This document shows, in pieces, positions 1 to 59,203 of a stretch of DNA of 64,000 bases. The stretch lies in NCBI RefSeq assembly GCF_026151205.1, contig NC_087084.1, forward strand, positions 11,311,453 through 11,375,452. The letters are read 5' to 3'. This stretch comes from Bolinopsis microptera. Lineage: Eukaryota; Ctenophora; Tentaculata; Lobata; Bolinopsidae. Position 1 is the stretch's first letter. Every line of letters starts with the position of its first letter. The notes under the pieces are model-generated. The model was not told the DNA's origin, ran no database searches, and worked only from the letters and a program-made list of their open reading frames with translations. Made by a program: the position numbers and the translations under genes.

Positions 1-2712
1 CTGCTCGTTAAGCCCACATCTTCTGTTACTGGATTTTATACTTACCAGGTTAGTCAACGCTCTTATTTCTTTTAAAAAAACTATATTACGATCATAAATG
101 CTAATGATTTCTGAAATTGTCTTATAACAGCTGCAGTCTTTGCAGCTGGTCAGCTATAAAATGCAATATTGCTGAAATGCTGATACGATCAGAACCATGT
201 AAATTGTTATGACTACAGAGAAAAGGATACCATATCTTCTCAATACATTCTTGCTGAGATCCCTAATGACGAGGAAGGGCCTTATAAAAGTACAATTTAG
301 GTAGCGGAGGAGGGTGACGAGCTAAAGTTATATTGTTTGACATCAGGACAAGACATAAAGTGGTCAAGGACCGTTAATGGGATTAAGGAAGAACTGAAAG
401 CCCCTACGTATCAGGTCTCGAAATCGTACAGGTGAAAATAATGTTTACAATCGGAAATAGAAACCACAAAAACTAATTAGATTTCTTAGTACAGTGAGAT
501 TCTGACCTCTAGAGCCCGATTTACCGCAATACAAAAACTGATTTGTCATTTGCTTCTCCCAAACTCTTGGTAAAGCAGAGTTCGACTGGACAACAAGCAC
601 TTCATGGCGCTTAGCCAAGATATGTTTGTCAATGATTGATGTAATTTAAATGTACTTAGTACTATGAACCGCAGTTTAACCTAATTAATTATAAATTTAA
701 TATATATAATTATAAATCCCCTATCACAGATGTGGGAACCCGTACATGTGTGGCGGGTACGATGTAGAGGAAACTAAAGTGTGCCTCAGGAGCACTCTGA
801 CCCTGAGGGGTCTTCAGAAGAGCGATAGTGCTACTTACTTTTGTCAAGAAGGAGTTCAGAAAGGAGCGTTTTCCTTCGCTTACGTTTTAACAGTAAGTGT
901 TGAAGATGGCGTGTAGTTTGGATGTACATGATAATGTAAAAAGTTTTGTGGAGTAGTTAATTTTGAGATTTGTGTGTTATTCTTTCTATGCTTAAGGCTT
1001 TTATAGTTCTAAATGTCCGATAGAGCTTTTAGCTAGAAATATTAAATTTTTACTTATTTTGTTATTGAAATATTAAAATTTTCATTTTCATCAGGTATTC
1101 AGCAGTAATGCTATGCCTCATATTTATGATTTTGAGCCTCTGCAGTGCAACAATACAGATTGGTACGGTTGCATAGCAACAAAAAACTCCGCCAGGTTGG
1201 TAAAAATATTAGTTGTTATTAATTGAAACATCAAAATTAAATTTTGTTTCCAAGAAGTTCCTCTAAAAACTAAATATGTTCCTGTCAGTTGAAACTAATA
1301 TCAAATAATAACAGATACGAGTTTTTCGTACAATCACAAGGAGACAAGACGACACTAAAAGGAACCTATAACGAAGCTAATATTACCAAAATTGGTGATA
1401 CAGACGTGAGATATCTTATCAGAGATAACTACATCGCACTGCACGACTTCTCTATACTGAATGTGAGACTATTTTCCAACAGTTGTATTATAATCCGGAA
1501 GCTTGCGACAATCGCGCTCACATTGGGATGTCCGCGAAGTTTCTTGTTTTTATTCATCTCGGGTCTTTAAAATAGTATGATTGAGAATTCAGGCCATAAT
1601 CCTTATAAACAGAATCTTGAATAATCTATCTTTCCATTTCAGCAACCTGAAATGAAGTTTGGGTGTAGGGCTTTTGACCGTTCTGGTAGATTCACCGAAT
1701 TTGCAACAGGTATTAATAAAAAATTCGTTCAGATTAAACCGCATATGGGGTCGTTCACATATTAATACGTTGGCTAGATTTTTGCCATTTCAGACTCCAT
1801 CCCCCGACACTACTTTGTAGAAACTACACTATAGCTTCCTAAACCCCCTCCCCCTACAACGTTACATATGAACGATCCCTATGAAAGTTATAAAGTTTAT
1901 TAGGTTCTAAACTTAAAGTCCGATTGTTGAGTAAACATGCAACGTGTTGAAGGCAGACATTTTAAGCAGGCTTTGTCTATCATCTTATTAGCATTAATTA
2001 AAATACCTACATTTCTCTCGATGAAAAACCGGTCTTTATAAAAAAATTAATATTTATCTTCACCGACAGCAACACCTTTATAGTTTATATTAAAGTTTAC
2101 TTTTAGTCACATATTATTTTAAGTACTCGGTATTTTAAAATGTATTTTCAAATCGGAAGTTTTAGGTAAAACGTTTGTCGACCTTGAACCACCAAGAAGT
2201 CAAGATACGTACGAAGCATATCTCGTTAAATGGATAGGTGTTGGTAAGTCCCTTATTTTAATAAAATTATTGATAAAAATAATAATTATTAAGACAATTT
2301 GTACATCTAAAATATCAGTTAATTTTGGAGTTCCACAAGATTTGAGACTCCTTTTGATGTTTTTATAGAGTAATGATAAAGGAAATATAACTGATACTCA
2401 AGAAAAATCTGAAATATCAGTTAATTTTGGAGTTCCAAAAGATTTGAGACTCCTTTTGATGTTTTTATGGAGTAATAATAAAGGAAATATAACTGATACT
2501 CAAGAAAAATGGAAATATTTACTATGCAATAAATAGTAACAATAATAAAATCTTTTTAACAAATTTTGCAATTTTCAGGCGTCGGATCGTTTGCAGGGTT
2601 GATAATTGTTATTTTTGTTTGCTGTAAACTTAAAAAGCGTTGTGGAAGAGAAAGAAGACATTCTGCAACCTACACAGGGATAGATAGGCAAGGAGGTCAT
2701 CAGGACCTGTAA
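1..2712 (+). CDS. Ig-superfamily type I transmembrane protein, 3' part (8 exons), one in-frame stop
   Basis: Exons read by eye: <1-48, 193-431, 730-892, 1095-1195, 1315-1462, 1643-1709, 2166-2243, 2579-2712. Every GT-AG junction keeps phase. The first clear Ig-like domain runs from EGDELKLYC (exon 2) to SDSATYFC (exon 3), the usual B-strand and F-strand cysteine contexts. A second Cys-paired region follows, with QCNNTDWYGC in exon 4 and FGCRAFDRSGRF in exon 6. The last exon encodes a hydrophobic span (VGSFAGLIIVIFVCC), a basic stop-transfer KLKKRCGRERR and a short cytoplasmic tail ending GGHQDL. The product should therefore sit in the plasma membrane with the Ig part outside. TAG at 298-300 interrupts exon 2, and the same frame reads Ig sequence on both sides. 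That makes it a pseudogene, a null allele or a base error. An AATAAA lies at 3018-3023. The 5' part is outside the window. Adhesion or recognition is a family-level guess; no orthologue is named. Confidence 0.75.
2311..2510. repeat. 102-bp tandem duplication in the last intron of the Ig-like gene
   Basis: Two adjacent, nearly identical copies lie just upstream of the transmembrane exon. Both contain TTTTGGAGTTCC and GACTCCTTTTGATG. The period is 102 bp, measured from the repeated AATATCAG at 2311 and 2413. Only a few substitutions separate the copies, so the duplication looks recent. Confidence 0.85.
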
Positions 2713-4026
2713 CTAATTAATTAATTAATTAATTAATTAAAAATGTGGTCATCAGGACCTGTAATTGAATTTTTACTTTTCATTAAGTGTTTTATTTGGG
2801 TTTCCTCCACCATAAACTTTAAATTGTTGATGTTTTCATGTTGTGTGACATTGTATTAATTAATACTAATGGAAATACGTTGACTTGTGAATACTTTTAG
2901 TGCAGAAGACTGTGACGAATACGTTTTCTAATTATTTTCGTAGTTTTAATGGTTCGTTTGTTTCAACAAATAATACATGTGTTTGGTAAGGATGATGTGG
3001 GCTTAAAGACTGACAAAAATAAACATATGATTGGCAATATTTATTTGAAAAAGAAACCTTTCATCGAACCATCTGAAATTAATATCATGTGAATGTTACA
3101 CGTGATAACTATTATTAACACTATTATAGAGTTAACTTTGCTATCAATGTTTTGCAGTAGAACTAGACGATATAGTTGAAACAGATTTTATGATGATAGT
3201 ATATTTTAATTGTAATTATATTTCATCGCATCTATAATACTTGAAATAAAATTACTAAAAAAGATAGTTATAAGCATCAAAAATATTTAATAAATGCATT
3301 ATTAATTAGTGATTACTAATAACTATACCAAATGTTCGAGCTTTTGTTAGTTCAATAAATTATTGTTGATGATCATTCACTTCTCCTATCGCCAGCAGAG
3401 TCTTCCTCTCGCAGTATTACATTGGCATCCTTGACCACTTCGCTTCGTTGCATTTAAATGTGATTATCACCTACTTAAGTCATCCTTTGATGTACCTTGC
3501 AGTATTTGTTCCTGCTCGAGGATGAATGCATCAACCGCGATGCAGCATCACGATGAACTCTATTGTAATTACGTTTAGATGAAGCGGGGGATTCTGTATC
3601 CTGAGCTGCTAGTGTCCGAGTTTGGTATCGCTGTGGCCAAAGGTTTGAGGAATGGTTGCTAGAAACATTAACAGAGGTATCTACTATCTGATCAAAGAGT
3701 TTTACAAGACATCAGTTTGGATCCTAATTAAATTCAAGTAAGTGATCATGAGGATGATGCAGAACTCAGCACCAAATGATCAAAGGATATGTATGTCAAT
3801 GTAAAGGCAGAAACTAATGCCTGTTAAGAGTTAACAATCCGATGAGATCGGTACAAAATATCGAAAAGACTTTTATTATACTCTTTTTATCACGTTAAAA
3901 CGTTAAAACAGTCCAAATACAGAAAACAGATAACAATTTGTACTACCAATGTTATTGTTACAATAGTCTTTTATGGGCGTTTACTTTAGTCTTTTTGTCT
4001 ATGTTACTGAAGGAAGTTGGGACAAA
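2713..4026. other. 3' flank of the Ig-like gene; no gene recognised
   Basis: AT-rich sequence with short TTAATTAA runs just after the stop and a candidate AATAAA polyadenylation signal at 3018-3023. Short open stretches near 3490-3830 are broken by stops in every frame and match nothing I recognise. Confidence 0.6.
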
Positions 4027-4034
4027 CTCTAAAG

Positions 4035-4791
4035 CATAGATGCGGAGTTCGTTGATTTTTGGCGTAGAGTTCGTGGAGTTCGTTCAAAATTTGGAGTTCG
4101 TTAGAGTTCGTTGGAGTTCGTTAGTCAATTTTTCAAAAAAAAACATGGAAAATGTTTTTTTAAAAAAGTAATCAGCTCAGGATTTCTCGCATGATCTCAG
4201 ATATTTATATCAACTTTACTGTAGTACTGTACACTGTCTACTTTACTGCTGAAAGTTGTACCTACAATGACATTTGAATCATCAACTATACCTATAAGTC
4301 TATACACAGTGCACTTCAATTTCAAATAGTTCAGTCTGCTGTACATGGCAAAATAAAATGTATACATCATACATGAACACTGAATGTACAATGTACATTC
4401 GGTGTGATCACAGCTGTTTACAGCAGAAGAAAACGAAACGCAACGCCAGAAGTACAAGTTGAAGTTTTCTGCAACGTGTCCAGGGAACGTGCGCGCGCAA
4501 ACTATTGGCGCCAGAATGTTCCAGTCGATCGACCAGTCCTTGTACTGTGAAATATACACTTACAGTGTACACGCGACGCGTGGTAGAAGTTTCGAGTACC
4601 AATATATTTAGTTGTTTTACAATCGTAAGTTATGTATTGAATTGGCTGAATTGTAAATACAATTTCTGTTTAATTTCATTTTACGTAAGTTGTACAAAAC
4701 GAACTCCTCAAGAGTTCGTAATTTTGGGTTGATGAGTTCGTAGAGTTCGTTGTCACTGAGGAGTTCGTAGAGTTCGTACGTATCATCTATG
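4035..4791. mobile_element. Non-autonomous hAT-like element with GAGTTCGT subterminal repeats
   Basis: The ends are CATAGATG at 4035 and CATCTATG at 4784-4791, an 8-bp terminal inverted repeat. A perfect 8-bp direct repeat, CTCTAAAG, flanks them at 4027-4034 and 4792-4799. An 8-bp target duplication is the known hallmark of hAT insertions. Both subterminal zones (4044-4125 and 4690-4780) are packed with the octamer GAGTTCGT, sometimes overlapping as GAGTTCGTAGAGTTCGT. Such iterated motifs are often transposase-binding sites; that role is inferred here. No transposase is visible. Open frames of 75 to 120 codons inside look accidental. Confidence 0.72.
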
Positions 4792-4799
4792 CTCTAAAG

Positions 4800-6957
4800 A
4801 GGAACTGCGAACATAGTAGTATGTAGTAGAGTAGTAGTAGTAGTACTAGTAGTTTACTTTAGGTGTATTGCAATTTTATTCGATATTTTGAACAACTATT
4901 GATTTTAAACGATAATAACAAGCACCAAGTACCGTAAAGTGTTGTATTTGATCCAATCTAACGCAAAGAAAAACTTAAAACAAGCGAACAGAGCACACAA
5001 TACAGGCAATTTCTAGCTTATCAAATAGGAATTAGGAAGCGCATATCGACTATCGAGTAAAGGTTTAGTGGTGATAACAGATAAGTGACGTATCATGAAT
5101 TTAGGTTGACCATTGTTAATGGTCTGGCCCGGCGTGCGCTACTTCGTAGCACTTGCCGTCGGGCGCTACTTCGAAGAAATTTAGACGAGTAACATCCGTC
5201 AAGAATTTAAAACGTTCAGTCTGTAACTCGGTCAGTAATCGGAAGAGTTAAAGAGGTAGGGATTTCACTTATTTAATAGTAACTCTCTGATCTCCGTATG
5301 TGGCGGCAACAATTACCAATTAATGCAAATTAAACTTTTGTCGTTGTGATCCTTTAGTGTTTTTTTGCGTCCTATGACTTACATTTCAACAATGTTCTTG
5401 CTAGTGATCAAGAATTTTGTTTTTATTAACATATGATACTTTAGATCATTTAAGGTATTACTAAACCCAAGCAATGAGCAGTTCCGTACATTATCATGTC
5501 TCTGATCAGAACAAACTTAAAGCCGATTTTTGTAATTATCGCGATCCAACTTGCTCAGCAGCTTATTCAGTTTTGGACAAAAATAGCTGTATGAACTATG
5601 AACATTTTGAGATTTTTCAATTGAAAAAAGACGAAAAACAATTTGGACACGCGATTGTATAAATCATATACACAAACTATGTACTCTTCTTGCCCCATTA
5701 ATGTATATTTAATACTTGGAAGAGTGAAGAGTGAAACATTTCCACCAGCAGCTCTGGATTGTTACCATAATTCTCAGCACACCACCACAAATGGTTCACA
5801 AGCTGGCTGCTATTCCAGGCGCCTATTTTAGGGTGTTCTTAGCTGCATTGTTTAATTTCTTTCGCAGATTCTTTGCCATGTGCCATACATCGTATTGATT
5901 GATTGTAAACCAAGACGGTGCCCGGGTGGTTCTAATGACAAATTTTAATCTCAACAAATATATAATAAAATAGTAATAATCCCTCACAAGGGCATTGCAC
6001 TCTTAATACGTTAATAGTAAAATGCCACACTGTGTAGATCAGCACTTTACGACGGAATCGGAACCTCATCTCCCAAATATTGCAAAAACTTAAAGTTTTG
6101 TATGCTCCAAAGTCCAACGGCCAAAAAGAATAACTCAACAAATAAAATTGTTTATCACAACGGGACAAGTCCCCATCTTCTCACGAACACTATCGTCCCT
6201 AATATAATAGCAAGACATGTATTGAAAAAATACACTCTAAAAAAGCCACACTCATCCCACTGATATGTCTTCAGTATGAATTCAAATTGTCCCTCCGTAA
6301 TTCGCACCAACAGGCAACGTTACGTCACTGCTTGACTGGCCGAGTAGTCTTCTCATTCAACTTGAGCTCCATCTATTATCTCTACTAGCAGGAACCCGTC
6401 TAACCCTAAAGTGGTGTCAAGACTCAAAAGACTAAGATAATTATTACCTATTTAATTCGCGTTTTTGTCACCACTTGGGGGTCCAAATTTTGGGCACTAA
6501 AATTCTTATTCTTTTTTATTATTTCATGCTGATTTGAAGGCCATTAAGGCATTTGACCCAGTCAAAAAAGTTTCAGTTGTATATCTTTCACGGTTTTTGC
6601 GGAAAGTCGCGTTTATAAAGTTGATGCCGTGGTGTCAGTAAAATGGCACGGATCCATGATATATATCGTCTCGCTTTATATATAGTAAGATTAGTCTGGT
6701 AAGACTAATAGAGATAATAACAATGATCTTTAGTAAGTATCCTTAATTATTGTTGATTGACAATTATAATTTGGTAATAGCATTATCTTTGTTAGTCTAG
6801 TGAGTGTGAATGTGTGGATAGCCGTGGTTATTCAGGTAAGACTAATAGAGATAATAACAGTGATCTTTTGTACGTATCCTTAATCATAGTTGATTGACTT
6901 TTACATTAATTAATTGTCATTATCATCAATTGTGTTTTCATTGTCCTCTCTTATATA
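4800..6957. other. Intergenic, no gene recognised; contains a dispersed repeat
   Basis: Only short open stretches of about 60 codons occur, for example 5474-5662, and none looks like a known family. The segment near 6380-6475, containing AGCAGGAACCCGTC and AATTCGCGTTTTT, reappears in inverted orientation near 38285-38380 inside the TIR element of collagen intron 34. It is therefore a dispersed transposon fragment. The motif AGACTAATAGAGATAATAAC occurs twice, at about 6702 and 6841. Confidence 0.55.
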
Positions 6958-7243
6958 TCAGTTATCACTGAGCTCCATTGCGCGTTTCAGTCTAATCTCC
7001 TCAAATATGTCTCCGACTGTTCTGTTCAAGTCTTTACTGGAATCTTCAGGAAAACCGAAAATCATGATATTCTTGCTCAAGTCTTCTGCTTGCACCACAG
7101 ACTTGACGACTTCCTTCAAAGTCTCGGGTGTAACTGAACTGTCAGGTTATGACAAACCATGACATTTTCCTGAACTGCATCGCTGTACGATTTAAACAGA
7201 CGCTCAACCGTGTCTTTAAAAACGGTCTGCACTGCCTGTGCAA
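6958..7243 (-). pseudogene. LINE ORF1-like remnant, frameshifted
   Basis: On the minus strand one frame reads AVQTVFKDTVERLFKSYS and ends at a stop. An overlapping frame then continues TPETLKEVVKSVV and LSKNIMIFGFPEDSSKDL, ending at a stop at 6958. The block 'KNIMIFGFPE...D' followed by a DIFEEI helix resembles the nucleic-acid-binding core of ORF1 proteins from invertebrate non-LTR retrotransposons. The frameshift and lack of a neighbouring reverse transcriptase mark it as dead. The family call rests on pattern resemblance only. Confidence 0.5.
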
Positions 7244-7322
7244 GGTATAGTTTAGTTAATATGTTTTGTTTGAGGCATGTTACAGTTACACAGTAATTAC
7301 ACAGTTAATGGTGTTATTATAG

Positions 7323-10300
7323 TGGCAGCCCGAAGCACGCCTTCAAAGTCGAGCTCGAGCAAGGAGAGAGGTCTGGTCAGATGATGGTTATGGAGACGAA
7401 CTTCTACCACTGCTACACGTGTGGGTTTATCCCATGGGAGTATGGTCCCATCGGAGCCCCCTGGAGAGGATGGTGAGAGATTGTAACTTGTTCATTCACT
7501 TTCTGCTATTAGATCAATGATCCTGTCAATGATGACCGTCATTTACCCTTTCAATTTGCAATGGGAAAAAATAAATCGTCATGGTTCGGTATTTTTCCTT
7601 TTATTTACGTTTACAATAAAAAGATTTTCGTTTTGATTAAACATTTATTATCACAGTTCCTGTCCCAACCCGTTTGCACTGATGCGAGGACAGGTGAACG
7701 GGCATCAGCAGCAGAACCCGAATGCAATAAGGAGGATGCTGACACCACGCGTCTTCGAGGGCAAGGCAAGGGTTCTCAACGTGACACCCGGGGATAGGAG
7801 GTACCAGCAAGGGTTCTCAACGTGACACCCGGAGATAGGAGTTACCAGCAAGGGTTCTCAACGTGACACCCGGGGATAGGAGGTACCAGCAAGGGTTCTC
7901 AACGTGACACCCGGGGATAGGAGGTACCAGAAAGGGTTCTCAACGTGACACCCGGGGATAGGAGGTACCAGAGGGCAAGGCAAGGGTTCTCAACGTGACA
8001 CCCGGGGATAGGAGGTACCAGATTGAGGGCAAGGCAAGGGTTCTCAACGTGACACCCGGGGATAGGAGGTACCAGATTGAGGGCAAGGCAAGGGTTCTCA
8101 ACGTGACACCCGGGGATAGGAGGTACCAGATTGAGGGCAAGGCAAGGGTTCTCAACGTGACACCCGGGGATAGGAGGTACCAGATTGAGGGCAAGGCAAG
8201 GGTTCTCAACGTGACACCCGGGGATAGGAGGTACCAGAGGGCAAGGCAAGGGTTCTCAACGTGACACCCGGGGATAGGAGGTACCAGCAAGGGTTCTCAA
8301 CGTGACACCCGGGGATAGGAGGTACCAGATTGAGGGCAAGGCAAGGGTTCTCAACGTGACACCCGGGGATAGGAGGTACCAGATTGAGGGCAAGGCAAGG
8401 GTTCTCAACGTGACACCCGGGGATAGGAGGTACCAGATTGAGGGCAAGGCAAAGATCCTCAACGTGACACCCGGGGATAGGAGGTACCAGATTGAGGGCA
8501 AGGCAAAGATCCTCAACGTGACACCCGGGGATAGGAGGTACCAGATTGAGGGCAAGGCAAGGGTTCTCAACGTGACACCCGGGGATAGGAGGTACCAGAT
8601 TGAGGGCAAGGCAAGGGTTCTCAACGTGACACCCGGGGATAGGAGGTACCAGATTGAGTTTAATAGGGCAAGGCAAGGGTTCTCAACGTGACACCCGGGG
8701 ATAGGAGGTACCAGATTGAGTTTAATAGGGCAAGGCAAGGGTTCTCAACGTGACACCCGGGGATAGGAGGTACCAGATTGAGTTTAATAGGGCAAGGCAA
8801 GGGTTCTCAACGTGACACCCGGGGATAGGAGGTACCAGATAGAGTTTAATAGGGCAAGGCAAGGGTTCTCAACGTGACACCCGGGGATAGGAGGTACCAG
8901 ATAGAGTTTAATAGGGCAAGGCAAGGGTTCTCAACGTGACACCCGGGGATAGGAGGTACCAGATAGAGTTTAATAGGGCAAGGCAAGGGTTCTCAACGTG
9001 ACACCCGGGGATAGGAGGTACCAGATTGAGGGCAAGGCAAGGGTTCTCAACGTGACACCCGGGGATAGGAGGTACCAGATTGAGGGCAAGGCAAGGTTTC
9101 TCAACGTGACACCCGGGGATAGGAGGTACCAGATTGAGGGCAAGGCAAGGGTTCTCAACGTGACACCCGGGGATAGGAGGTACCAGATTGAGGGCAAGGC
9201 AAGGGTTCTCAACGTGACACCCGGGGATAGGAGGTACCAGATTGAGGGCAAGGCAAGGGTTCTCAACGTGACACCCGGGGATAGGAGGTACCAGATTGAG
9301 GGCAAGGCAAGGGTTCTCAACGTGACACCCGGGGATGGAGGTACCAGATTGAGGGCAAGGCAAGGGTTCTCAACGTGACACCCGGGGATAGGAGGTACCA
9401 GATTGAGGGCAAGGCAAGGGTTCTCAACGTGACACCCGGGGATAGGAGGTACCAGATTGAGGGCAAGGCAAGGGTTCTCAACGTGACACCCGGGGATAGG
9501 AGGTACCAGATTGAGGGCAAGGCAAGGGTTCTCAACGTGACACCCGGGGATAGGAGGTACCAGATTGAGGGCAAGGCAAGGGTTCTCAACGTGACACCCG
9601 GGGATAGGAGGTACCAGATTGAGGGGCAAGGCAAGGGTTCTCAACGTGACACCCGGGGATGGGAGGTACCAGATTGAGGGCAAGGCAAGGGTTCTCAACG
9701 TGACACCCGGGGATAGGAGGTACCAGATTGAGGGCAAGGCAAGGGTTCTCAACGTGACACCCGGGGATGGGAGGTACCAGATTGAGGGCAAGGCAAGGGT
9801 TCTCAACGTGACACCCGGGGATAGGAGGTACCAGATTGAGGGCAAGGCAAGGGTTCTCAACGTGACACCCGGGGATAGGAGGTACCAGATTGAGGGCAAG
9901 GCAAGGGTTCTCAACGTGACACCCGGGGATAGGAGGTACCAGATTGAGGGCAAGGCAAGGGTTCTCAACGTGACACCCGGGGATAGGAGGTACCAGATTG
10001 AGGGCAAGGCAAGGGTTCTCAACGTGACACCCGGGGATAGGAGGTACCAGATTGAGGGCAAGGCAAGGGTTCTCAACGTGACACCCGGGGATAGGAGGTA
10101 CCAGATTGAGTTTAATAGGGCAAGGCAAGGGTTCTCAACGTGACACCCGGGGATAGGAGGTACCAGATTGAGTTTAATAGGGCAAGGCAAGGGTTCTCAA
10201 CGTGACACCCGGGGATAGGAGGTACCAGATAGAGTTTAATAGGGCAAGGCAAGGGTTCTCAACGTGACACCCGGGGATAGGAGGTACCAGATTGAGTTTA

Positions 10301-12219
10301 ATAGGGCAAGGCAAGGGTTCTCAACGTGACACCCGGGGATAGGAGGTACCAGATTGAGTTTAATAGGGCAAGGCAAGGGTTCTCAACGTGACACCCGGGG
10401 ATAGGAGGTACCAGATAGAGTTTAATAGGGCAAGGCAAGGGTTCTCAACGTGACACCCGGGGATAGGAGGTACCAGATAGAGTTTAATAGGGCAAGGCAA
10501 GGGTTCTCAACGTGACACCCGGGGATAGGAGGTACCAGATTGAGTTTAATAGGGCAAGGCAAGGGTTCTCAACGTGACACCCGGGGATAGGAGGTACCAG
10601 ATAGAGTTTAATAGGGCAAGGCAAGGGTTCTCAACGTGACACCCGGGGATAGGGAGGTACCAGATTGAGGGCAAGGCAAGGGTTCTCAACGTGACACCCG
10701 GGGATAGGAGGTACCAGATTGAGGGCAAGGCAAGGGTTCTCAACGTGACACCCGGGGATAGGAGGTACCAGATTGAGGGCAAGGCAAGGGTTCTCAACGT
10801 GACACCCGGGGATAGGAGGTACCAGATTGAGGGCAAGGCAAGGGTTCTCAACGTGACACCCGGGGATAGGGAGGTACCAGATTGAGGGCAAGGCAAGGGT
10901 TCTCAACGTGACACCCGGGGATAGGAGGTACCAGATTGAGGGCAAGGCAAGGGTTCTCAACGTGACACCCGGGGATAGGAGGTACCAGATTGAGGGCAAG
11001 GCAAGGGTTCTCAACGTGACACCCGGGGATAGGAGGTACCAGATTGAGGGCAAGGCAAGGGTTCTCAACGTGACACCCGGGGATAGGAGGTACCAGATTG
11101 AGGGCAAGGCAAGGGTTCTCAACGTGACACCCGGGGATAGGAGGTACCAGATTGAGGGCAAGGCAAGGGTTCTCAACTTGACACCCGGGGATAGGAGGTA
11201 CCAGATTGAGGGCAAGGCAAGGGTTCTCAACTTGACACCCGGGGATAGGAGGTACCAGATTGAGGGCAAGGCAAGGGTTCTCAACTTGACACCCGGGGAT
11301 AGGAGGTACCAGATTGAGTTTAATAGGGCAAGGCAAGGGTTCTCAACGTGACACCCGGAGATAGGAGGTACCAGATAGAGTTTAATAGGGCAAGGCAAGG
11401 GTTCTCAACGTGACACCCGGAGATAGGAGGTACCAGATTGAGGGCAAGGCAAGGGTTCTCAACGTGACACCCGGGGATAGGAGGTACCAGATTGAGTTTA
11501 ATAGGGCAAGGCAAGGGTTCTCAACGTGACACCCGGAGATAGGAGGTACCAGATAGAGTTTAATAGGGCAAGGCAAGGGTTCTCAACGTGACACCCGGGG
11601 ATAGGAGGTACCAGATTGAGTTTAATAGGGCAAGGCAAGGGTTCTCAACGTGACACCCGGAGATAGGAGGTACCAGATTGAGGGCAAGGCAAGGGTTCTC
11701 AACGTGACACCCGGGGATAGGAGGTACCAGATTGAGTTTAATAGGGCAAGGCAAGGGTTCTCAACGTGACACCTGGGGATAGGAGGTACCAGATTGAGTT
11801 TAATAGGGCAAGGCAAGGGTTCTCAACGTGACACCCGGGGATAGGAGGTACCAGATAGAGTTTAATAGGGCAAGGCAAGGGTTCTCAACGTGACACCCGG
11901 GGATAGGAGGTACCAGATTGAGTTTAATAGGGCAAGGGTTCTCAACGTGACACCCGGGGATATGAGGTACCAGATTGAGTTTGATGTTCGTGGGTGGCAC
12001 TACACAACCATCATCAAGAAGAAGCGTCCCCACTTCGAGTGGGTGGAATACCAACTACAGCGTGGGTTGCTCACTGGAGCAAGAATAGTCATCGCGGCTA
12101 CATTGAGAGACGATATCGAATGCAGTATTTGGGTTCACAAGCTAGTCCTTTGGCGGATAGCTTTAAAGGACAATACATATCGCTTCATAGATGTGTTCTC
12201 TGGTGTTAATAATGTTTGA
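7323..12219 (+). CDS. Unrecognised Cys-containing protein; exon invaded by tandem amplification of its own codons
   Basis: One exon, 7323-7472, has flanking AG and GT and encodes FYHCYTCGFIPWEYGPIG. It joins in phase to an exon beginning at 7657, which reads CSCPNPFALMRGQVNGHQQQ, then TPRVFEGKARVLNVTPGD. The same sequence resumes after the repeat array as TPGDMRYQIEFDVRGWHYTT, then KKKRPHFEWVEYQLQRG, and can run to TGA at 12217-12219. So 7657-7760 and 11940-12219 look like the two halves of one ancestral exon, with the copy-number gain between them. As assembled, the array does not preserve frame: equivalent GTG codons start at 7781 and 11947, in different frames, and 41-bp units create stops. 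The CYTC and CSC motifs suggest disulphides or metal binding. I do not recognise the family, and upstream exons were not found. The C-terminal part after QLQRG is the least certain. Confidence 0.5.
7757..11975 (+). repeat. ~4.2-kb exonic minisatellite, main unit 54 bp (18 codons)
   Basis: The 54-bp unit encodes GKARVLNVTPGDRRYQIE in one frame and has no stop in several others. Variant units of 62 bp carry an 8-bp insertion, giving GAGTTTAATA. Units of 41 and 50 bp lack the start of the unit and cluster at the left end (7770-7980, plus one near 8280). Small variant blocks recur in neighbouring units: AAGATCC near 8450 and 8505, AACTTGACACC at 11177-11290, and CCCGGAGATAGG near 11350-11660. That pattern indicates local segmental expansion and homogenisation. 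Dividing the span by the mean unit length gives roughly 75 copies. Each unit has the palindromes CCCGGG and GGTACC. All long open frames here on either strand are by-products of the repeat. Confidence 0.93.
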
Positions 12220-13994
12220 GTCTAGATATGTGAACTGGTATTGCTAGTCGTATATTTAGTTTGATTTGACAGTAAAACAATGCGCAGAATTTTTGTAAAA
12301 TTAAAAACAATTTATATATAAATAACAACTAACTAATTCTCTTCTTTTGAAGATGTGGACCCGCAGACAATTGTTTAATTTACAAGACGTTATTGTTTTA
12401 TAATCATCTATACTATTGATTGCTTCTTTATTATGAAACACGGTATTTTTCTGATCTTGTTCAAAACCAATATAATTCATCTTTGAATAATAAAATTTAA
12501 CATGCAATATAATATTAATAATAAAATTTTACATGCAATATAATAATTTTACAACAATATAAATATTTAAAAAAATTCAGTTCAAAACACAGTCAGGCTC
12601 TTCAGCACCAGCCTCCGTAGCAACATGTTGTTGCTGTAAAACATTCTAAGCACGAGGTGCAGCTCTGCAACACCTTGCGGATGGTGCTTAGCTGTTGATG
12701 TTGGTACTGCACCAACTCTATAGAGATCAGGCGTCTCCTTACTATAAAGAATCCCCCTGTTGATATGTTGTTGTTGCATAACGTTAAAGTTGCCAGTTCG
12801 ACAACTGCTACTATCCAACCCTCTGACACAGAGCCAACACATCACAGATGTATCAGCGAGGAGGGTAGGTTTAGGAAACTGTTCACCATCTGTTCACTAT
12901 CTCCCCCAGTAAAAGTAATGTTCAAGGTCGTTAATTGGCTGCACTGGGCTGCACTGGGCTGCACTGGGCTGCACTGGACAGCCATCTGAAGTACCCTCAG
13001 CATGTTGCTGCTTGCGATATATATGTACATCACTGTAAGTCTTTCAAATGCCATATGCCTCCATTAACCGCTGACTCCTATAAGTGGCATTAGCTCCACA
13101 TCGGTGAACAAATTAGAAACGTGGTCAAGGCTATCATGGTTAATAGTTCTCTCGAGAGACAAGTTGATGCATGAATTTGAAGTCATTATAAAGTATAGTA
13201 AAGTAAAGTAGTAAAGTAAATAAACGGCCGGGATACCGGTAAATCTGGCGGACGGATTTTAGTGTAAAACCACTTTGTAATTTATACACCACTACTAGTA
13301 CTATTATACGTTACATCACTGCAATACGTCATTTTACAAGAACTTTCAAAATTATTATGTACGGTAACATCATCAATGTATCTAAATAATCGTGAATTGA
13401 CAGACGATTTTTACGTCATCATATTGACATACTAAGTTCTAACATAATATGTTGACTATTAAAATAAGATGTTTGGATCAAACCGCTCTTTGTCGGCACC
13501 TTTTTGCTGTTCATTCAAAGATTTATGTTTTTGTCTGTCAAAACTATGCAATTATAAGGTTTAAATATACATATTAGAAACGTATCATATACGATGTCAG
13601 CAAATCATGCAACAACATGGTGTTTTGTCCTCTACTTCATGCATTTATCAGCAGTTTTCATATGACTTTTGTAGTCCATCTTGTAGACGTTTATTACAAT
13701 TTCCTTGTAAAAGTGTGAAGACAGTGAATGTTAACATTTTACTATTCAATATTAGAAATTCCAATATCCAAATTCAAAGGCGAAATTTGATCCCAAAACG
13801 TAACCTTCCATTTCCCTTAATTTTGACTTCTGAAATGCCTCAAGTCTTTGAATACCCATATCCCTTAAGTTACCCCATCATGATCAACATTAGTAATACA
13901 ATATTTCCTTAGAGTTGCATGATTAACGATGGAGCGCGGGTAGTATTCATGTGTTTTCACTTATAATTGGACCTAAATACTTGTCTGTGGGGCT
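12220..13994. other. Intergenic; short 10-bp tandem repeat, no gene recognised
   Basis: AT-rich sequence. A small array of the 10-mer GCACTGGGCT, about four copies, lies at 12937-12978. Open stretches on both strands (for example 12582-12845 and 13607-13912) have no recognisable motif. GAGCAAT-type AT-rich DNA and scattered AATAAA/TTTATT around 12490-12540 could hold the 3' end of the preceding gene. Confidence 0.5.
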
Positions 13995-16779
13995 ATGGAT
14001 TTCGCCACAGAATTCGAAAATCAAACAGTCGCTAAATCTTACATTGAACAAGCAAACGAAAGGTTGCAACCAGTTCTCTCTGCCGGGCCTGCAAGTGGCA
14101 GCAAAATAATTCAGCAAACAGGGCATAATCCTTACCCTCAATGCTCTTGTGAAAAACCCGTATTACAAGCATCTCCAATAAACCACCAAGGAACACACCC
14201 TGTGCAGCAGTCTGCGTCATATCTGGCAGTCTGCCAGGCTGCCAGTCTGCAGTTTCACCTGGGTTGTGTTGTGCTTGTAGGATGATACAGAGGTTACCTG
14301 TTTGTGATTGTGACAAACCAGGGCTGAGAGATGGACCACTGTCTGGATCTGCTGGTCAGGAGGAAAATAATATATCTGACATTAGACCAGCTGTTGAAAT
14401 ACGAGGAGGGACGGATAATGGACATGATGTGGTGAAGAAGAAACGGGATGATGCTAGAAGGAAAAGGAATGAAGCACGGTACAGGTTGTTAGAACCGACC
14501 CAGCACAAATTCAATATCAAGCCTTTACAAAGAGAAAAGGAACATGCTAGTTTCCTACCTTGGTACTCTAAAACCTGGGTTACTCCAATGCGTACCTTCC
14601 CAAGACGCCACATCAGCAGGGTAACAAGAAGGTAAAATTGTTATTTTGATATTTTTCACACGTTTAAAAGTTTTAAGCCTCCTTTACAAATGATAGCTTG
14701 ATTAGCCTAGAAAACCTGTTCGCCACTGGTTCAAAGCAATATTATTGTTATGAAAAAAATGCATCGTATTTTTAGGTTATACAGAATCCACTTTATAATT
14801 TTTTATATTTCGTAAACTTATGATCAATCTCTCAGGTCACTGTTTCGAGCTCGAGAAGATCAGGACTCAACCTATAACGACCCACCTCTACCTACCCTGG
14901 ATACTAGACCTCTTCTCAGGGCCCTTATGGAGATCAACGCTAGTGTAACGACTGTGTCGACTAGTACGGGTTGTTGTTGTGCAGGAAATCATTGTAACAC
15001 AGGTATACCTACACTCACTGTTAACAATACCACGTGATGACGTGCACTCAAACTCGCGCGAGAAAATGTGCTTGACCAGAAGTGACAAATGTGTAATGTG
15101 TATGCCCCCTCACTCCATAATCCATATGAGCAAATGAAATCTGAATGATGAACTGATGGAGAAGGAATGATTTGTAGTGAAACTTCTCAATCTGAGAGAT
15201 AAATTATAACTGAAATCAATATTTTGTAGTTAATTCCAATATCAATGCAATTAACCAAAGTTGCGCCATATCAGCACACAGCATAAAATACAATGCTACA
15301 ATGTCACGATTCTGATTTTCAATGTTCCGATGTATTTTCCAGGTTATTCACAGCAAAGTCCCCAAATGATGCCTCAAATGATGCCTCCAATGATGTCTCC
15401 CATGATACCTCCGATGGTGCCTCCAATGATGTCCCCCATGATGCAAAGTGCTATGATGGATCCCACAGCTATGATGAGGAGTTGGAACACTGCCAATTCA
15501 CCCCGATACAGTGTCTCTGAACCTAGTGGGGAGGAGCAAGGTAACTAGCATTTATTTCTTCTTTATATCATTTAGTTTTTCAAAAGTTCTAGGAGCTTGT
15601 ATTCATCTTTTGAAGTTTTGGTTTACAAAAACTACAGATTAAAGAAACTTGTAACTGATTTTCAATAAATTTTATTGATGAGATGAGATTTTTGGCGGAG
15701 TACATATAAAAAAATAAAATAATATGTTGTGTGCTTTGAACGGCAATCTTAGTTATGTGGAAAAGGCCCCAAAATTTCGGATTTGCTCTAATGTAACAAA
15801 ATATGGCCTGTCTTTCGAATGTCGAACTATTCGACATTTCTAATTCGTTGATTTTCTTCGATTATCATTTCTTGACTTTGTTGTAAGTAAAGCAGAATGC
15901 CAGTAGAATTAATTTTGATATTTTGGGGCTTATTTTCTTACAAGAAAAGTAGTTAGTAGTTAATAGTAATACAGTCGAACTTTTCGATCAGTTTCAATAT
16001 AATATCATAATTAGATATGAACAGATTTTCATATAAAATAAAAATTTCAAAAATGAAAATAAGCCCCAAAATTCTCTGCAGAGAAGTTAAGCAGGGATCA
16101 AATGCAATCAACCAGCCCTAACGTCCCTCGTATAATCGAAGAAAAAACAGCCGGCTCCCTCCGCAACACTCCTCCTCCGGCAATCTCACTTCCTGTTGAA
16201 AACGTACCAAAGCTGAAGACTGCACCTCACATAGTGGTACCTAACATGATGGTACCTAATATAGTGGTACTTGAGCCTACTTCTGTACCGGACTCCTCCC
16301 AGAGGATCAGGGATGATAACTCGTCCCAGAGGAAGGACGATAACTCGTCCACTTTGGGGCAGATTACTGAGTTAGATCACGATCATGCTCTATTATCTAG
16401 GGATGATCTATCTGAAATGGTTACTAAACGAGACTCTGATCCAACCAACCCCATCACCAATCCAATCAGTACATTCCAAGTTGATCTAACAATCAAACAA
16501 ACAACTAAGATCAGCTATCACGATTCAGTCCTTCTCAAAGAACCGAAGAATCACCCCAGTAAAATCATACACATCCCAAGCTCAAGAGATCCTAAGAAAA
16601 TACGAGGCTTCCTCGTTCCTAAGGACTTTGAGCCGGTTAAGACCTGCAAACGCAGAGAGTTGCCCCCTGAAAGTGTGCCGCTAAAATGCCAACATGACCT
16701 GCCTGTTGATAATAGAAAAGGGAGTTGCTCTCTGCACGGTGCCAACATTGGATTTGTGTGTACGTGTGTAGATGACTAG
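13995..16779 (+). CDS. Unrecognised protein, ~545 aa, Cys clusters plus a Met/Pro-rich repeat
   Basis: Proposed exons: 13995-14148 or -14209, 14208 or 14281-14631, 14836-15002, 15343-15540, 16082-16779. The last four joins are phase-consistent, with normal GT-AG ends and good acceptor tracts. The first join needs a short intron, 14149-14207 or 14210-14280; both restore frame, and the second keeps two similar motifs, CSCEKPVLQ and CDCDKPGLR. Start MDFATEFENQTVAKSYIEQA. Exon 2 is basic (KKKRDDARRKRNEARYR). Exon 3 ends GCCCAGNHCNT. Exon 4 is a low-complexity run of MMPQ/MMPP/MMSP units. Exon 5 is polar and probably disordered, with VVPNMMVPNIVV and DDNSSQRKDDNSS repeats, ending in a Cys-rich tail (KCQHD...GSCSLHG...FVCTCVDD). 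No signal peptide or membrane span is seen. Neither family nor function is recognised. Confidence 0.6.
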
Positions 16780-18617
16780 GGGGTTTGTGGGTGTTTTAGG
16801 ATTTTGTTTTAACATTAGTGTACATTTTCACTTTTCAGACATCGACTAATTTCAGGATTTAATTTAATGGTATCATGAATATATTAAATGTTAATTGCTG
16901 CACAGCTACAGTTTACTTGTCTCAGATTGAATTTTCGGTCAAAATTACCATTGCATTTGTTAATGACGATTGATTTAATATTTTTAGGTTTGATTTTTAT
17001 AATTATATGAGACATTAATATGACTGTTATTAATTATAATTAACATAGGAATATGAGTATTGAGTATGAGGATCCCCAACCAAATGTGCATTTTAAGGTA
17101 GAGAAGGTTACCCTATAATTATAATATGATTCGGTTTTTGTTTGTTTTATTTCTGGCCTGTGCAAGTGCAAAGTGTACGACATAGTTCCATTTTAGTTAA
17201 TCGAGCATTCTAAATCTAAACACTAAATAACTCATGTTAATTGTTAAACCTACAGCTGATTTAACAGGACTAACGATTCAACATTCCCCAGAAAATCCCG
17301 GTAAATTGTGGTTTCAGTAAACTCTCAGCTGGAGCATGGACAATGGAGGGTATAATTGATAATTATATACGTCAATTCTAGGGAAAATATTTTAGGGAAT
17401 ATTCTAGGGAAAATCCTAGGGAAAATATTCACTATCTCATAATTTCATAAAATGTTATCGTCGCGTCGCTGGTCGCAATGGCATTGTGTAATTGTAACAC
17501 AATGCATTACTGCATTACTTCATTATGATTATAATGATATGTTGGGGTCATTAGCTATTTTATGCACAAGTTTTAATATTCAAGTTGACAATGGTCACCG
17601 CCATTTTGGCTAGAGATTATTAGTAAAAAGATGCTTTCTCATTTCTTAAAACTACTTTTCATTGACTAAAGAGTGAACACGTCTTTTTACACAATAACAA
17701 GTTTTGGGAATCTCTTTTCATCAATCAATAATAATGGCCATGACTATTGTCAACCTGAAGATTCGATTGTATTTGCAATTAGTAAAGCAAATATGCATCC
17801 TGAGAAATTTATTGCCCGACCAGAGACCTTGTCTCAGTCACATACATTTGTTAAATATTGGACAATGAGTGACGTGAGATAAATAGTTTATTTGCGGCTC
17901 TTCTGATCGTTCACAGTTCACACTTGCGTTTCAATAAAAGTATCTGGGATAGTAAGTAAAAATACCAGGGAAGAACCGAGATTTACCTGTGCGCGGCGCT
18001 CTTTTCAAGCTTCCTGATACGTGAGAGAAGCGAGCAATAGACTAGCAAGAATCTAGATAAAACCAAGATATAACTTAAAGTGAAAGACCCGATCTGCGGT
18101 CACAATAGGATAAATACTCATAGTAATACATCTGTTACGAAGAATTCGCAAAAATTTAAACTATGTTGAAGCAAATTTTATTTCAGAATGACAATATTTA
18201 AAAGTGCCCCCTTTTCATTTAAGAAGTATCTATATAAATTTTCCAAAAATGCCTCTTCCTATTCCGACGATTTTTCATTCCAAACAAAACGCAAAAATGT
18301 AACACACAATCAAAATCCCAGTAAACTGATTTGTGAGATACTGGGTTCAAGAAATATTATTTCCGAAAATGGGAAAATATGATTTTCCATTTTGTATTGC
18401 TTACCACTTCTTTGGTGATCTAAGCTCAGTTTTTAAAATACTGCTGACCCATGCTCTGGATGTTTACCAATATTGTTGCTGCAAATAAAGTTAACTATTT
18501 GTATTATACTTAACTCTACTGAAGATGCAAAAGTGAAAAAATGTTGTCAAATGTCATATCAAGTCAATGCGTCAAAATGTTCAGTAAAACATATAGCCAT
18601 TAATTAATTAGTGCCTA
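16780..18617. other. Intergenic, no gene recognised
   Basis: AT-rich sequence with short direct repeats such as TTCTAGGGAAAATATT near 17377-17430. The open stretches at 17673-17882 and 18188-18382 are short, AT-driven and without motifs. The 3' end of the preceding gene presumably lies here, but I found no convincing polyadenylation signal close to its stop. Confidence 0.5.
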
Positions 18618-19433
18618 CCTTATCGGACCTTATTTGGACGGATATTACTTGAACGGACATAATTATGGACGGACATTTATATGAACGCTAGAAGGCAATC
18701 AAAACCATAAAAAAATCCGAATTTTGTTGAACTTTTTTTTAAACGTTTTTTTTTTGATTTTAGCAAATGATTTTTAAATCCATTTTTATACACTAAGCAA
18801 GAAAAGCAGTCTATAATAAGTAAAAATGTTAAAATATGTGTACATGATCATTATCTAATATCACATATAATCTTCATCAAATGGGTTTTCGTGCAGGGAG
18901 ATATCCCGGTTTGTCTTCTACTTTATCGAGATGGGTGGTATGGTAGAAGGTATCGTAGCTGACATAAGCCACCGAAGGTCGCCTATACCAAGTGGGGAGC
19001 TAGAGATAAAGCTTAAGCTGCAGTACTTTAGGCATTCAAGTATTTCTCTAGTAGATCAGTTGGGATCGTTCATTGCCCGGTACGACTACGAGTTGGACAG
19101 ACAACCAGTTGTAAGACAAAATGAGGTAGAAGAAGCCGAAGATCAACTTCAAGATAGTGAATATCATGCAATAATGTGATATTTAAAATTCAGATTGTTA
19201 AAATTTTATGATACCTTGTTTTTATTGATTCAACGATATTGTTTATTTTAATGATAGCAATTGAAATTTACTGAAATTAAAAAGTTGTCATATTCTGGAC
19301 AAAAAGTTCTAAATGGAAAAATTTTGACGGACTTTAACTTGGAGTTGGACGGACATTAATTGAACGGACTTTACTTGAACGGACATTAACCTGAACGCTA
19401 GGGCCTCCAGCGTTCAAGTAATTTCCGTCAAGG
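18618..19433 (-). mobile_element. TIR DNA transposon (CCTTATCGG family) carrying unrelated coding sequence
   Basis: The left end reads CCTTATCGGACCTTATTTGG and is flanked by TA (18616-18617). The right end retains the inverted version with a short internal deletion, ending CCGTCAAGG next to TA (19434-19435). Segment 18690-18896 is the reverse complement, with divergence, of the transposase 3' end and right subterminal region of the element at 46032-46929; both share the codons for HENPFDE. The segment at about 19260-19330 matches that element's other end (GACAAAAAGTTC). The interior, 18897-19190, matches nothing in that relative. So this is a non-autonomous copy whose transposase body has been replaced. 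Confidence 0.7.
18931..19179 (+). CDS. Unrecognised 82-codon ORF inside the transposon
   Basis: An open frame beginning MGGMVEGIVADISHRRSP and continuing GELEIKLKLQYFRHSS, then FIARYDYELDRQPVVRQ, with an acidic tail (EVEEAEDQLQDSE). It stays open upstream through SRFVFYFIE, back to a possible acceptor at TTTCGTGCAG. Composition looks protein-like: charged heptads, no low complexity. It lies antisense to the transposase remnant and between the two TIRs. A host exon captured by the transposon or a degenerate transposon protein are both possible; I do not recognise the family. Confidence 0.4.
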   Translation: MGGMVEGIVADISHRRSPIPSGELEIKLKLQYFRHSSISLVDQLGSFIARYDYELDRQPVVRQNEVEEAEDQLQDSEYHAIM

Positions 19434-19471
19434 TATATTTATAATCACGTCAATTAAGGATATTTATTCAG

Positions 19472-19842
19472 GAAGCAGACACTCCAATCAAAACTTCAAG
19501 TTTCATTTTGAACCGAAACAACACATTGTGGGAAACGAATGTGACATAAAGTTCAATAAACATACTTTCCCAGCTCAAACAGAAGGTTTGCAGAACAAAA
19601 TGAGCAATGTGTGTTCAGTGATGAGCCTGCGGATGTCTACGAGTACCGCGAACACGGCACTGGACTACAATTAGGGGAGCAAAATAACAATTTTCTGCTC
19701 CAGGAAGACCCTGCTAGAAATACAACCAGCAGTCCCGCCAAGACTGCAGGTGGTTCCTGTGTATATGTTGGCTCTCTGACCACTCCACTTGACTATGAGG
19801 ACTCGGACGGACTATGAGGACTCGGACGGGCTTGACGATTAA
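19472..19842 (+). pseudogene. C-terminal exon of an unrecognised protein, frame-disrupted
   Basis: After a plausible acceptor (TTTATTCAG), one frame reads RHSNQNFKFHFEPKQHIVG to about 19600. A second frame then takes over with QNEQCVFSDEPADVYEYREH and NNNFLLQEDPARNTTSSP. It ends LDYEDSDGL and a stop at 19815-19817. The 19-bp sequence GACTATGAGGACTCGGACG is present twice in tandem here. Read with only one copy, the frame would end ...SDGLDD and TAA at 19840-19842. So two disruptions are visible: a frame change near 19590-19600 and the 19-bp duplication. No upstream exons were identified, and the protein family is unknown. Confidence 0.45.
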
Positions 19843-20335
19843 GGAGCAGCCAGAACTTTATTACTTTAATACAACGCAACTTTCATTATTTGCGGTTTAT
19901 TTGTTATTTAGTTTTGCAACCTCAATTTCTCGTTTTACGCTACCGAACAAAACCATGCTATAAAAATAGTTTAGTGTTTATTATTTTGTTTAAAAGTTAT
20001 TGTTTTTTAGATTTGAATAGAAATATTTCTTGACAGTGTTTATTTTGGGAAGCTTTACTATTTTTGAAATGAATTTTATAATTATACTGTTTCACTTTCA
20101 TTGGGAAGGGTAAGCAGATAAAGTCACATGTTACTCATTGAGTTATATGAAATGCGCGTAGAGTATGAAGAATATATTATTATAAACATCTCTCAAATCG
20201 AGCATATAAATATAACTATATCATAATTAATCACAGGATCTTATAATTAATTATGATATAACCATACAAAATAGTTTGCAACCAGTAAAAAATGGGATTT
20301 CTGAAAAGTGCAGGCAAATCCCGAATGCAAGCAAT

Positions 20336-20824
20336 TACTACCGTAGTCAAGATAACAATATTTTACAGGAAAGCTAAAAGAAAAATAATAATTGTAGAAA
20401 ATAATTTAGCGATAAAATCATAAAAAGAAATTTAATCATCAACTGTAAACTAGCGTATAAATTTACTTTAAACACCTCTTCTCTACTGTACAAAAGCAGC
20501 TATCAAAGCGATCATCTTAATTAAAAAACCCTGCGGTATAAACCCTCTTTCACTAGTTACTCGTGGTCATTGTCAATAAATAAAGCAATTTTGAACAACA
20601 ATAAAATATCAAAGAAGAATTTTACTTGTCTCAGATTTGGTTCCTAAAGTCTGTTTAGATTTACTCAGGTGCAGCGTTCATGTAATACCTTCCGCCACCA
20701 AGTTGGAAGACTTGGCCTTCAGCGTAGGGGGTCTTGAGGCATACCACACAACGTGCAACTCCTGGTAGTTTTGTAAGGTTAGTTTAATTATCTTAATAAT
20801 ATTGTTATCTTGACTACGGTAGTA
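20336..20824. repeat. 27-bp perfect inverted repeat around the last collagen exon
   Basis: TACTACCGTAGTCAAGATAA and the following seven bases at 20336-20362 are exactly inverted at 20798-20824. The 435-bp spacer contains the collagen stop exon (20661-20761) and its immediate 3' flank. AAGAAATTTAAT also occurs just outside each arm, but in direct orientation (about 20427 and 20873). Nothing else gene-like lies between 19850 and 20660; a smaller AT hairpin is at about 20215-20270. Confidence 0.8.
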
Positions 20825-21735
20825 TTAAACTTTTAATTATTTTATATTTATCATTCGGCATAGAAAGTGACAAGAAATTTAATAGTTAGGGTAAAATGGC
20901 TAACTTAATTAACAAAGATCAAATAAACAATGGATAATAAAAATGCAACAAACCTCTATCCTTAATGTCATCAACTCCGTTGTATACGCTTCCCATACCC
21001 CACATACCGGGTTGTAGGAGGTCCTGAATTATTGTTCGTCGATAAAAAAGATAATATTGAATAATGTGCCGTAATTATTGGTAATTTTGAGCAGCATAAA
21101 ATTCTATTGAAACATGATATGTGCGATATAAAATTATTTTATAAATTAACCAACAACTGCACCTAACGAATTCATTGCTAACAAACAAGCAATAATTTAA
21201 AAAGTATGTTGTTCATAAATGTTATCATACCGGATTTCTTGCGAGCCAGAAGTCGATATTATTAGTGAAGAAGGAGCAGGTTCCTCGTCCATTGCACTCA
21301 ATGAACATAGGGTTACTCATGGTCTCGTGGCAGGATCCTACAGACTTCAGTTGTTGTCCCATGCCCATTTTACCGGACTTGCCCTGTGTAATGGTGGTGT
21401 GAGGTTATCAACAATTAAACATTTTAGTAGAGTACGTGATTTTTACTTCGTGGAGATTATAATATCATTTATGATTATTTGTCCTTCGAAGCAATATCCC
21501 ATTGGGGCTCGCTATTATCAACCAGTTAGCCAAATTTGATTAACTGCGTGTCAACCGTGCTCTATGAGGCCAATAATTGTTTATCGACAGATAACAAAGT
21601 TGTCATATGTAAAATGTTATTAATTACCATGATGTAACTGAATCCAGTCCAGAGCTCGCTCCATCCTGGATCACAAACTGGTGCAGCAACATCTGTGGAG
21701 TGCTTCACGATAGGAGCTTGAGTTCCCATACAGGC
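20661..21735 (-). CDS. Collagen IV exons 38-41: second C4 repeat and stop
   Basis: Exons 21628-21735, 21231-21383, 20954-21023 and 20661-20761. Exon 38 reads [20 protein letters not shown], then [16 protein letters not shown]. Exon 39 reads [18 protein letters not shown], then [15 protein letters not shown] and IDFWLARNP. Exon 40 reads [17 protein letters not shown]. Exon 41 reads [16 protein letters not shown], ends YYMNAAPE, and has TAA at 20661-20663. The normal C4 site VHSQT is altered to VKHST in this half. The Met-rich KMGMGQQ segment lies where the family has a Met engaged in inter-trimer cross-links; that function is not inferred here. Confidence 0.92.
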
Positions 21736-57700: not shown

Positions 57701-59118
57701 TCTCCAGGGGCACCAGGTTCTCCAGGGGCACCAGGTTCTCCTTGAGCACCATCCTCACCGTCGATACCGTTACTACCGGGTTCACCTGAAAGAGGACCCG
57801 TTAAATACTGTTTTCATGTATCGTGATCTTTGTAATGGAACAGGATTGTCATGCTGCATAAACTATTTTAACTTTATTAATGACTGGTAATTATGAGATG
57901 TGCTAGGAGGTAAAATAGCGTGTTAGTAAAGCTTGCTTAAGTCTATCAAATATTTTAGTATTCCTAACCCCAACTACACCACTTATGCATTTATTATAGA
58001 TATGGTAAATATGAATTTGAATCACAGTGAATCTAACCTGCAGCTCCTTCAAGTCCGGCTAATCCATTGAGTCCGTTAGCTCCGTCAGGTCCGGGAGCTC
58101 CCTGAGGTTCCTGGACATCTGCGCCAGGGTCTCCTGATTCTCCTTTTTCACCGTCAGCTCCGTCAGCTCCTGCTGGACCGTCAGCTCCCTACAAGGTTTT
58201 AAATTCTCATCTAACTAACACTACTAACACTAATCTGATACTTTCATTTCGTATGTTAATCCAAACGGATTATGCGAATAAACAGTGGCTATGCACAGGA
58301 GCTCACTTTACTGTTCTTACTGATATAAGTGTTGATTTGTATCGCTAGGGTGGTTTAAGGTTTTAGAGGAATTTTTTTTTCTCCCTTTGAATCAATCAAG
58401 CTAGATGATTTGTTGTAAATACTGAGATCAAACTATCAATTTACAGGCTATAATCGGCAAACATGTTGCAAGGCGTCATCTTCAGTGACATAAGCCTACA
58501 AATTGTAAAAGGTTAGGTTTTAGAAACAAATCTGATCAAGTTGCCATGACAACACCAAGGCTTACCTGGACACCATTAGGACCCATATCTCCCTTGGGAC
58601 CATCTTCAGCGTCTGTACCGTTACAACCATCAACACCGGCCATACCGTCTTCACCATCTTCTCCCATGATACCGGATACTCCCTGTTCTCCAAGGGGACC
58701 CAACTCTCCAGGTTCTCCCTAAGGTTACAAATGTTAGATGCAATGATTGTAAATACGGAACTTTTAGCCATGACAAAATTGCATAATTTGATCGCTTCTC
58801 TATCTAATCTAGGATCACTAAAATGAAAACATACCAATGATCAAACGACATTATTTTTAGAATCTAAGACTGAACTGGAACTTATAGACGTTTGAACATA
58901 CCTGCATTCCCTTGAGTCCGGGAAGTCCTGCGAGTCCGGGTGTTCCTTTGGGACCAGAGACTCCGGAAGGACCCTGGGGTCCAGTTTCACCTTGTGCTCC
59001 TGGAATTTTTTACCGTAAACTTAAGCGAAAAATGTTTCAAACCTAATGAATTCTTTGGAATGACATATTTCATTATGGTATCCGTTGTAAGAACCAAATT
59101 ATTCTTGTTGTGAAAATG

Positions 59119-59203
<85 letters not shown>

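Follow-up and report, generated by a model that had tools for sequence, protein, structure and literature searches.

A coding-exon minisatellite and the probable pseudogenisation of its host gene, from a small family, in the ctenophore Bolinopsis microptera

The gain of introns through duplication of an exonic segment containing AGGT is a published model, as presented in the accessible parts of the two articles concerned (PMC4974935; PMC3443670). For fission yeast, introns consisting of tandem repeats were described, and the authors state in the accessible part of their article that the intron in vivo needs more study (PMC3629103). Tandem repeats are also present in human coding sequences, and of the coding repeat polymorphisms 13.9% (abstract) or 14.24% (text) were reported not to be a multiple of three, in the portions of the source that were available (PMC1273636). 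A literature search joining intron gain, internal tandem duplication and minisatellite found no paper in the collection that was covered. Here, we describe a tandem array in a window of 64,000 nucleotides, i.e., the whole stretch of DNA that was analyzed, which is located on contig C13 of the Bolinopsis microptera genome (Table 1). With a probability of roughly three in four we regard it as an exonic minisatellite that, in the sequence as assembled, has turned one gene of a small family into a pseudogene.

Table 1. Features of the locus, in positions of the window.
Feature	Position	Strand	Remarks
Exon A, upstream coding exon	7327..7472	+	SPKHAFKVELEQGERSGQMMVMETNFYHCYTCGFIPWEYGPIGAPWRG; donor ATG|GTGAGA; 5' edge approximate, homology to L015 beginning at 7327
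Exon B, left part, last coding exon	7657..7759	+	Ends in SCPNPFALMRGQVNGHQQQNPNAIRRMLTPRVFE; acceptor ATCACAG; paralogs at C3 and C6
Minisatellite array	7760..11979	+	TRF, direct parse and neighbour-identity comparison; 76 units; GKARVLNVTPGDRRYQIE in the one open frame of the unit
Hypothetical intron	7801..11966	+	AG|GT of unit 1 to AG|GT of the last unit; 4,166 bases
Unit 2	7816..7856	+	Two states (GGA, AGT) of the closest paralog, L019; without AGGT
First stop codon from the left flank	7823..7825	+	Inside unit 2
Exon B, right part	11980..12219	+	FDVRGWHYTT...SGVNNV; stop TGA at 12217-12219

An initial annotation of the window had placed a minisatellite of about 4.2 kb at 7757-11975, built mostly from 54-bp units and interspersed with units that break the reading frame. 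TRF and a direct parse agree on a tandem array at this place, and the parse, with 76 anchors, confirmed the composition: among the 75 spacings, 54 bp occurs 40 times, 62 bp 23 times, 41 bp five times, 55 bp three times, 50 bp twice, and 53 bp and 57 bp once each, 41 spacings being multiples of three and 34 breaking the frame. The edges were read by eye, on the left after CTTCGAG (ending at 7759) and on the right before TTTGATGTTCG (starting at 11980 with TTTGATG). Tandem units in the range of about 10-100 bp, present in many copies within one block, are characteristic of an exonic minisatellite and are seen here. A DNA query of two joined units resulted in at least 79 matches in the genome, at least 75 of them within the array and at least four representing single-copy paralog segments on C6; among the matches listed, no second array was found elsewhere in the 264,652,675-base genome (232 contigs). 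The array length and the unit order are those of one assembly.

The array separates the two parts of exon B, which is joined to exon A by an in-frame splice junction. The acceptor ATCACAG of exon B is the same in the paralogous locus L015, the exon A donor GTGAGA is present in L015 and L021 as well, and three relatives of exon A were found elsewhere, i.e., at C12:11948333 (with a TAA), C6:15440756 and C6:15574165. Relatives of the right flank are located on C6 (15.40-15.71 Mb) and on C3, and the same applies to the left flank, the paralog set comprising seven 9-kb stretches. The two flanks had initially been taken to be found only once; this is correct within the window, where each occurs once, and incorrect for the genome, where both have paralogs on C6 and C3. 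At its C-terminal end the window copy is similar to L016, which reads SGLNTV followed by TAA. A Pfam search gave no match for the window copy, queried with pieces of exon A and of exon B, or for L013, and the use of the paralog alignment resulted in just two weak matches, each by one member of six (E 0.15 and 0.21). A PDB profile search gave no match, and the predicted structure of 11929-12216, composed of strands, is poor (mean pLDDT 52.1). A search for further exons among the window ORFs of at least 25 aa in 1-7320 and 12221-22000 yielded just four short, weak matches to the paralog loci.

The sister exons reveal the state of the exon with a single segment. The segment is present once in every one of the eight paralogous exon copies found that extend to both sides of it (L013, L014, L015 twice, L016, L017, L018 and L019), with the left part shorter or diverged in the far L015 copy, L016 and L017; two more exon copies, in L017 and L018, are without the left end. 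Because these eight copies hold the segment once, sequence comparison supports that the array arose within a coding exon of a small gene family, in line with the initial annotation, which had proposed growth inside an exon and had anticipated exactly one copy in relatives. The single-copy counterparts, the in-frame junction, the L016-like C-terminal end and dN/dS values below 1 all support a location of the array in a coding exon. L013 and L014, as the only paralogs, are open through all 125 codons compared, and L016 is open across 112 codons with a TAG just upstream. Frameshifts interrupt the near L015 copy and L019, and L018 has a TAG and a shift. As most of the paralogs are thus disrupted or truncated, the gene family may decay often, array or no array. 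A remoter copy, L022 at C6:15568556 (41%, two TGA), added nothing. In L015 (C6:15569500-15578500), the near copy contains a short duplication, with GGAATAGGAGGA present twice, within the segment from which the array of the window grew. Among the C6 copies L013, L014, L015, L017 and L018 (15.40-15.71 Mb), several have long blocks of about 90-98% identity in common, and the ORF beside the gene in L013, labelled by its motif, is presumably reverse-transcriptase-like; the shared blocks together with this ORF suggest recent segmental duplication of the C6 copies.

To compare synonymous and nonsynonymous changes, the flanks of the window copy were joined by one consensus unit. The dN/dS values are 0.141/0.475 (about 0.30) for L013, 0.141/0.454 (about 0.31) for L014, 0.164/0.789 (about 0.21) for L016 and 0.062/0.206 (about 0.30, over 69 codons) for L019. 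Furthermore, the right flank differs from L013, L014 and L016 by 12 synonymous and 12 nonsynonymous changes, with 21.5% synonymous changes expected at random (P 0.0019); L019 was left out of this comparison, and some of the changes may predate the split from L019. The left-flank changes private to the window copy in comparison to L013, L014, L015 and L019 comprise 0 synonymous and 3 nonsynonymous ones, which are too few to show or to date relaxed constraint. These counts disregard the order of changes within a codon. Judged by these sequence comparisons, the gene lineage was constrained over the history of the window copy up to its latest part. The variants of the array units look unconstrained; taken singly, four of the 11 are synonymous, one of these being part of a two-base amino-acid change, and 38 of 162 possible changes are synonymous. 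Selection for frame acting on the unit length was considered and rejected, as two of the seven length classes (54 and 57) are multiples of three, which is about chance and gives no evidence for coding constraint.

The three main unit lengths (54, 62 and 41 bp) can all be traced to the ancestral exon if different breakpoints are assumed. For the 54-bp unit the breakpoints fit two GAG triplets, TTC[GAG]GGC and ATT[GAG]TTT. The 62-bp unit corresponds to the 54-bp core extended by TTTGAT of the right flank (now TTTAAT by one G to A change) and by AG of the left flank, and the 41-bp unit extends from CAAGGGTT to TACCAG. Two orders of origin fit: the 62-bp unit may have been the first and have lost eight bases, or the 54-bp unit may have preceded it, the 62-bp class then being seeded by the right end. 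A scan of positions 10-48 and 51, leaving out three of the 76 units with indels, resulted in 11 single-base variants. Five of these match L019, with 5.8% expected (P 0.0002; 0.002 with two linked changes counted once), and six match some paralog copy, with 23.3% expected (P 0.025); apart from L019, each of the six remaining paralog copies shares 0 to 2 of the array variants. An extra variant, C to A at position 8, matches no paralog copy. Because five of the 11 variants match L019, older states seem to have been retained in some units, the others having been homogenised by local duplication; the paralog-like states would fit with retention from the founder as well as with gene conversion. Ongoing local duplication had been proposed from variants shared by neighbours, and this is supported by the identity of adjacent units, found in 30 of 74 pairs (last unit left out), whereas 5000 shuffles averaged 14.9 such pairs and reached at most 27. 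A search for an outside donor of the odd units 15-16 with AAAGATCCTCAACGTG gave two matches, both in the array. Secondary structure as a driver of the expansion was rejected, the fold of two-unit DNA being no stabler than that of shuffles (z 0.79; 152 of 200 at least as stable).

Next to its origin, the consequences of the array for the reading frame were analyzed. The 54-bp unit has one open frame and stops in the other two, and the 62-bp unit in tandem has stops in every frame. Across the three frames of the array, open runs reach at most 182 of about 1,400 codons, and the reading stays open from the last two units into the right flank (ORF 11869-12219). The extended repeat protein envisaged by the initial annotation is not supported for this haplotype, in which translation from the left flank ends within unit 2 and many of the spacings break the frame. 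A disrupted frame next to intact relatives, here L013 and L014 over the same 125 codons, is what marks a pseudogene. An antisense ORF of 408 aa (8970-10196) was dismissed as a gene and taken as a mechanical outcome of the periodic sequence.

These observations are consistent with the following course. An ancestral last exon would have carried the 54-bp segment once, as the eight sister exons support, and a tandem duplication within the exon presumably followed. Repeated local duplication or unequal exchange, supported by the neighbour identities, would then have enlarged the array and homogenised most units; unit 2, units 15-16 (14-15 in the neighbour comparison), the last unit and some units with GGA or ATA all carry paralog states, which would stem from the founder or from gene conversion. 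In the sequence at hand, the frame-breaking units lead to stops in every frame, and the unspliced exon is thus unable to encode the family protein. The break of this gene copy is probably recent, since the flanks are otherwise open and were constrained.

The last step applies to the unspliced exon; with the array removed by splicing, the gene would be unbroken. The array might be a new intron that uses the AG|GT of unit 1 as donor and the AG|GT of the last unit as acceptor, so that the protein survives, which we consider unlikely, and its more specific form, a spliceosomal intron being born by first-to-last splicing of 76 exon-derived units, we consider quite unlikely; in that case the ancestral protein would persist and the repeat could grow and drift freely. 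The duplicated exonic segment does contain AGGT: of the 76 AGGT sites in the array, 75 represent the unit's own GAGGTACCAG site (GGAG|GTACC). In silico, removal of the hypothetical intron yields an open exon of 131 codons that contains the segment once, i.e., splicing between the outer copies leaves the coding sequence unaltered. Among the 2850 AGGT pairs, two keep an open frame as far as the stop. Other frame-keeping splice pairs next to the array would also do; the best-scoring of the 84 found in the scanned ranges, 7694 to 11868, gives 128 codons to the stop. The splice sites were scored with a matrix built from 18 donors and 23 acceptors, picked by eye from 39 Gly-X-Y runs, plus the exon A donor and the exon B acceptor. 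The left flank contains a CAG|GTGAAC donor (score 4.2) and the 62-bp units carry an acceptor-like GAGTTTAATAG|GG (score 5.3 at 11930), both within the range of real sites. However, this donor is no adaptation to the array because it is also present in the coding exons of L013, L018 and L019. Moreover, the AGGT donor scores 0.2, under all 19 real donors and over 62% of 3481 other GT, the AGGT acceptor scores 0.3, at or above one of 24 real acceptors and over 76% of 3353 other AG, and no polypyrimidine tract is visible by eye ahead of the AGGT acceptor. Because the AGGT sites score weakly, splicing-out of the array is rated low; it is allowed and not favoured.

It is very unlikely that the array is an assembly artefact with collapsed, expanded or mis-ordered units. 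A length of 4.2 kb is short relative to modern long reads, the window contains no N, the contig extends over at least 11.37 Mb by match coordinates and the variant pattern is structured; moreover, miscounted units would leave the origin from the exon unchanged. A working repeat protein, for which other alleles composed of 54-bp units only would encode many GKARVLNVTPGDRRYQIE copies within the family protein, finds some backing in the 40 of 75 spacings of 54 bp and the one open frame of this unit and is most improbable nevertheless, given the stop in unit 2 and the 34 of 75 frame-breaking spacings of the allele present here, unit variants that include frameshifts and mostly amino-acid changes, and the single segment in the eight sister exons.

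The window contains other long arrays, which like the one in exon B are local and made of similar units, i.e., a 35-bp array of 19.4 copies with 95% matches (34075-34753) and a 15-bp array of 23.4 copies (39317-39667) with the unit CGGACATAATTGTCA and several open frames on both strands. Runs of 15 bp of similar look start at 18624, 19345, 46092 and 46860, a 43-bp repeat is present at 54519-54919 in two blocks (4.1 and 3.0 copies) with about 100 bases in between, and GTGAAA is repeated 16 times at 59110-59205, directly after one of the 39 Gly-X-Y (collagen-like) runs that a pattern search revealed on the minus strand at about 35.0-59.3 kb. Furthermore, a tandem duplication of about 1.9 kb (23653-25568 and 25564-27481; 99.6% identical over 1918 bases) is surrounded by inverted repeats, both copies containing a 226-aa ORF (24183-24863 and 26096-26776) with no Pfam match at E 0.01. 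At 31994-33184, an ORF of 396 aa carries a reverse transcriptase domain (RVT_1, 2.7e-19) and represents a retroelement copy or remnant.

Read as an exonic minisatellite that pseudogenised its gene copy, the locus allows a minisatellite to be compared with its single-copy source, as the eight sister exons provide the starting sequence and the main unit classes can be mapped to breakpoints; the units with older states hint at the path of homogenisation. It is also a test case for whether an AGGT-bearing exonic tandem duplication turns into an intron or just kills the gene. The coding tandem repeats and minisatellites of humans, as far as covered by the available portions of the source (PMC1273636), resemble the array in consisting of tandem copies of a coding segment, for which a change in copy number alters the protein and can shift the frame; in contrast to these, 34 of 75 spacings are no multiple of three here, and eight sister exons still show the source of the repeat as a single copy. 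ATP2A1 and the fission-yeast gene SPOG_01682, as described in the accessible parts of the articles (PMC4974935; PMC3443670; PMC3629103), share with the array an exonic tandem duplication with AGGT, for which splicing of the outer copies would restore the protein. However, according to these parts the introns of the fission-yeast genes span four and two copies, respectively, of a segment of 24 bp, whereas the array comprises 76 units and 4.2 kb with splicing that is putative, and its AGGT sites score weakly.
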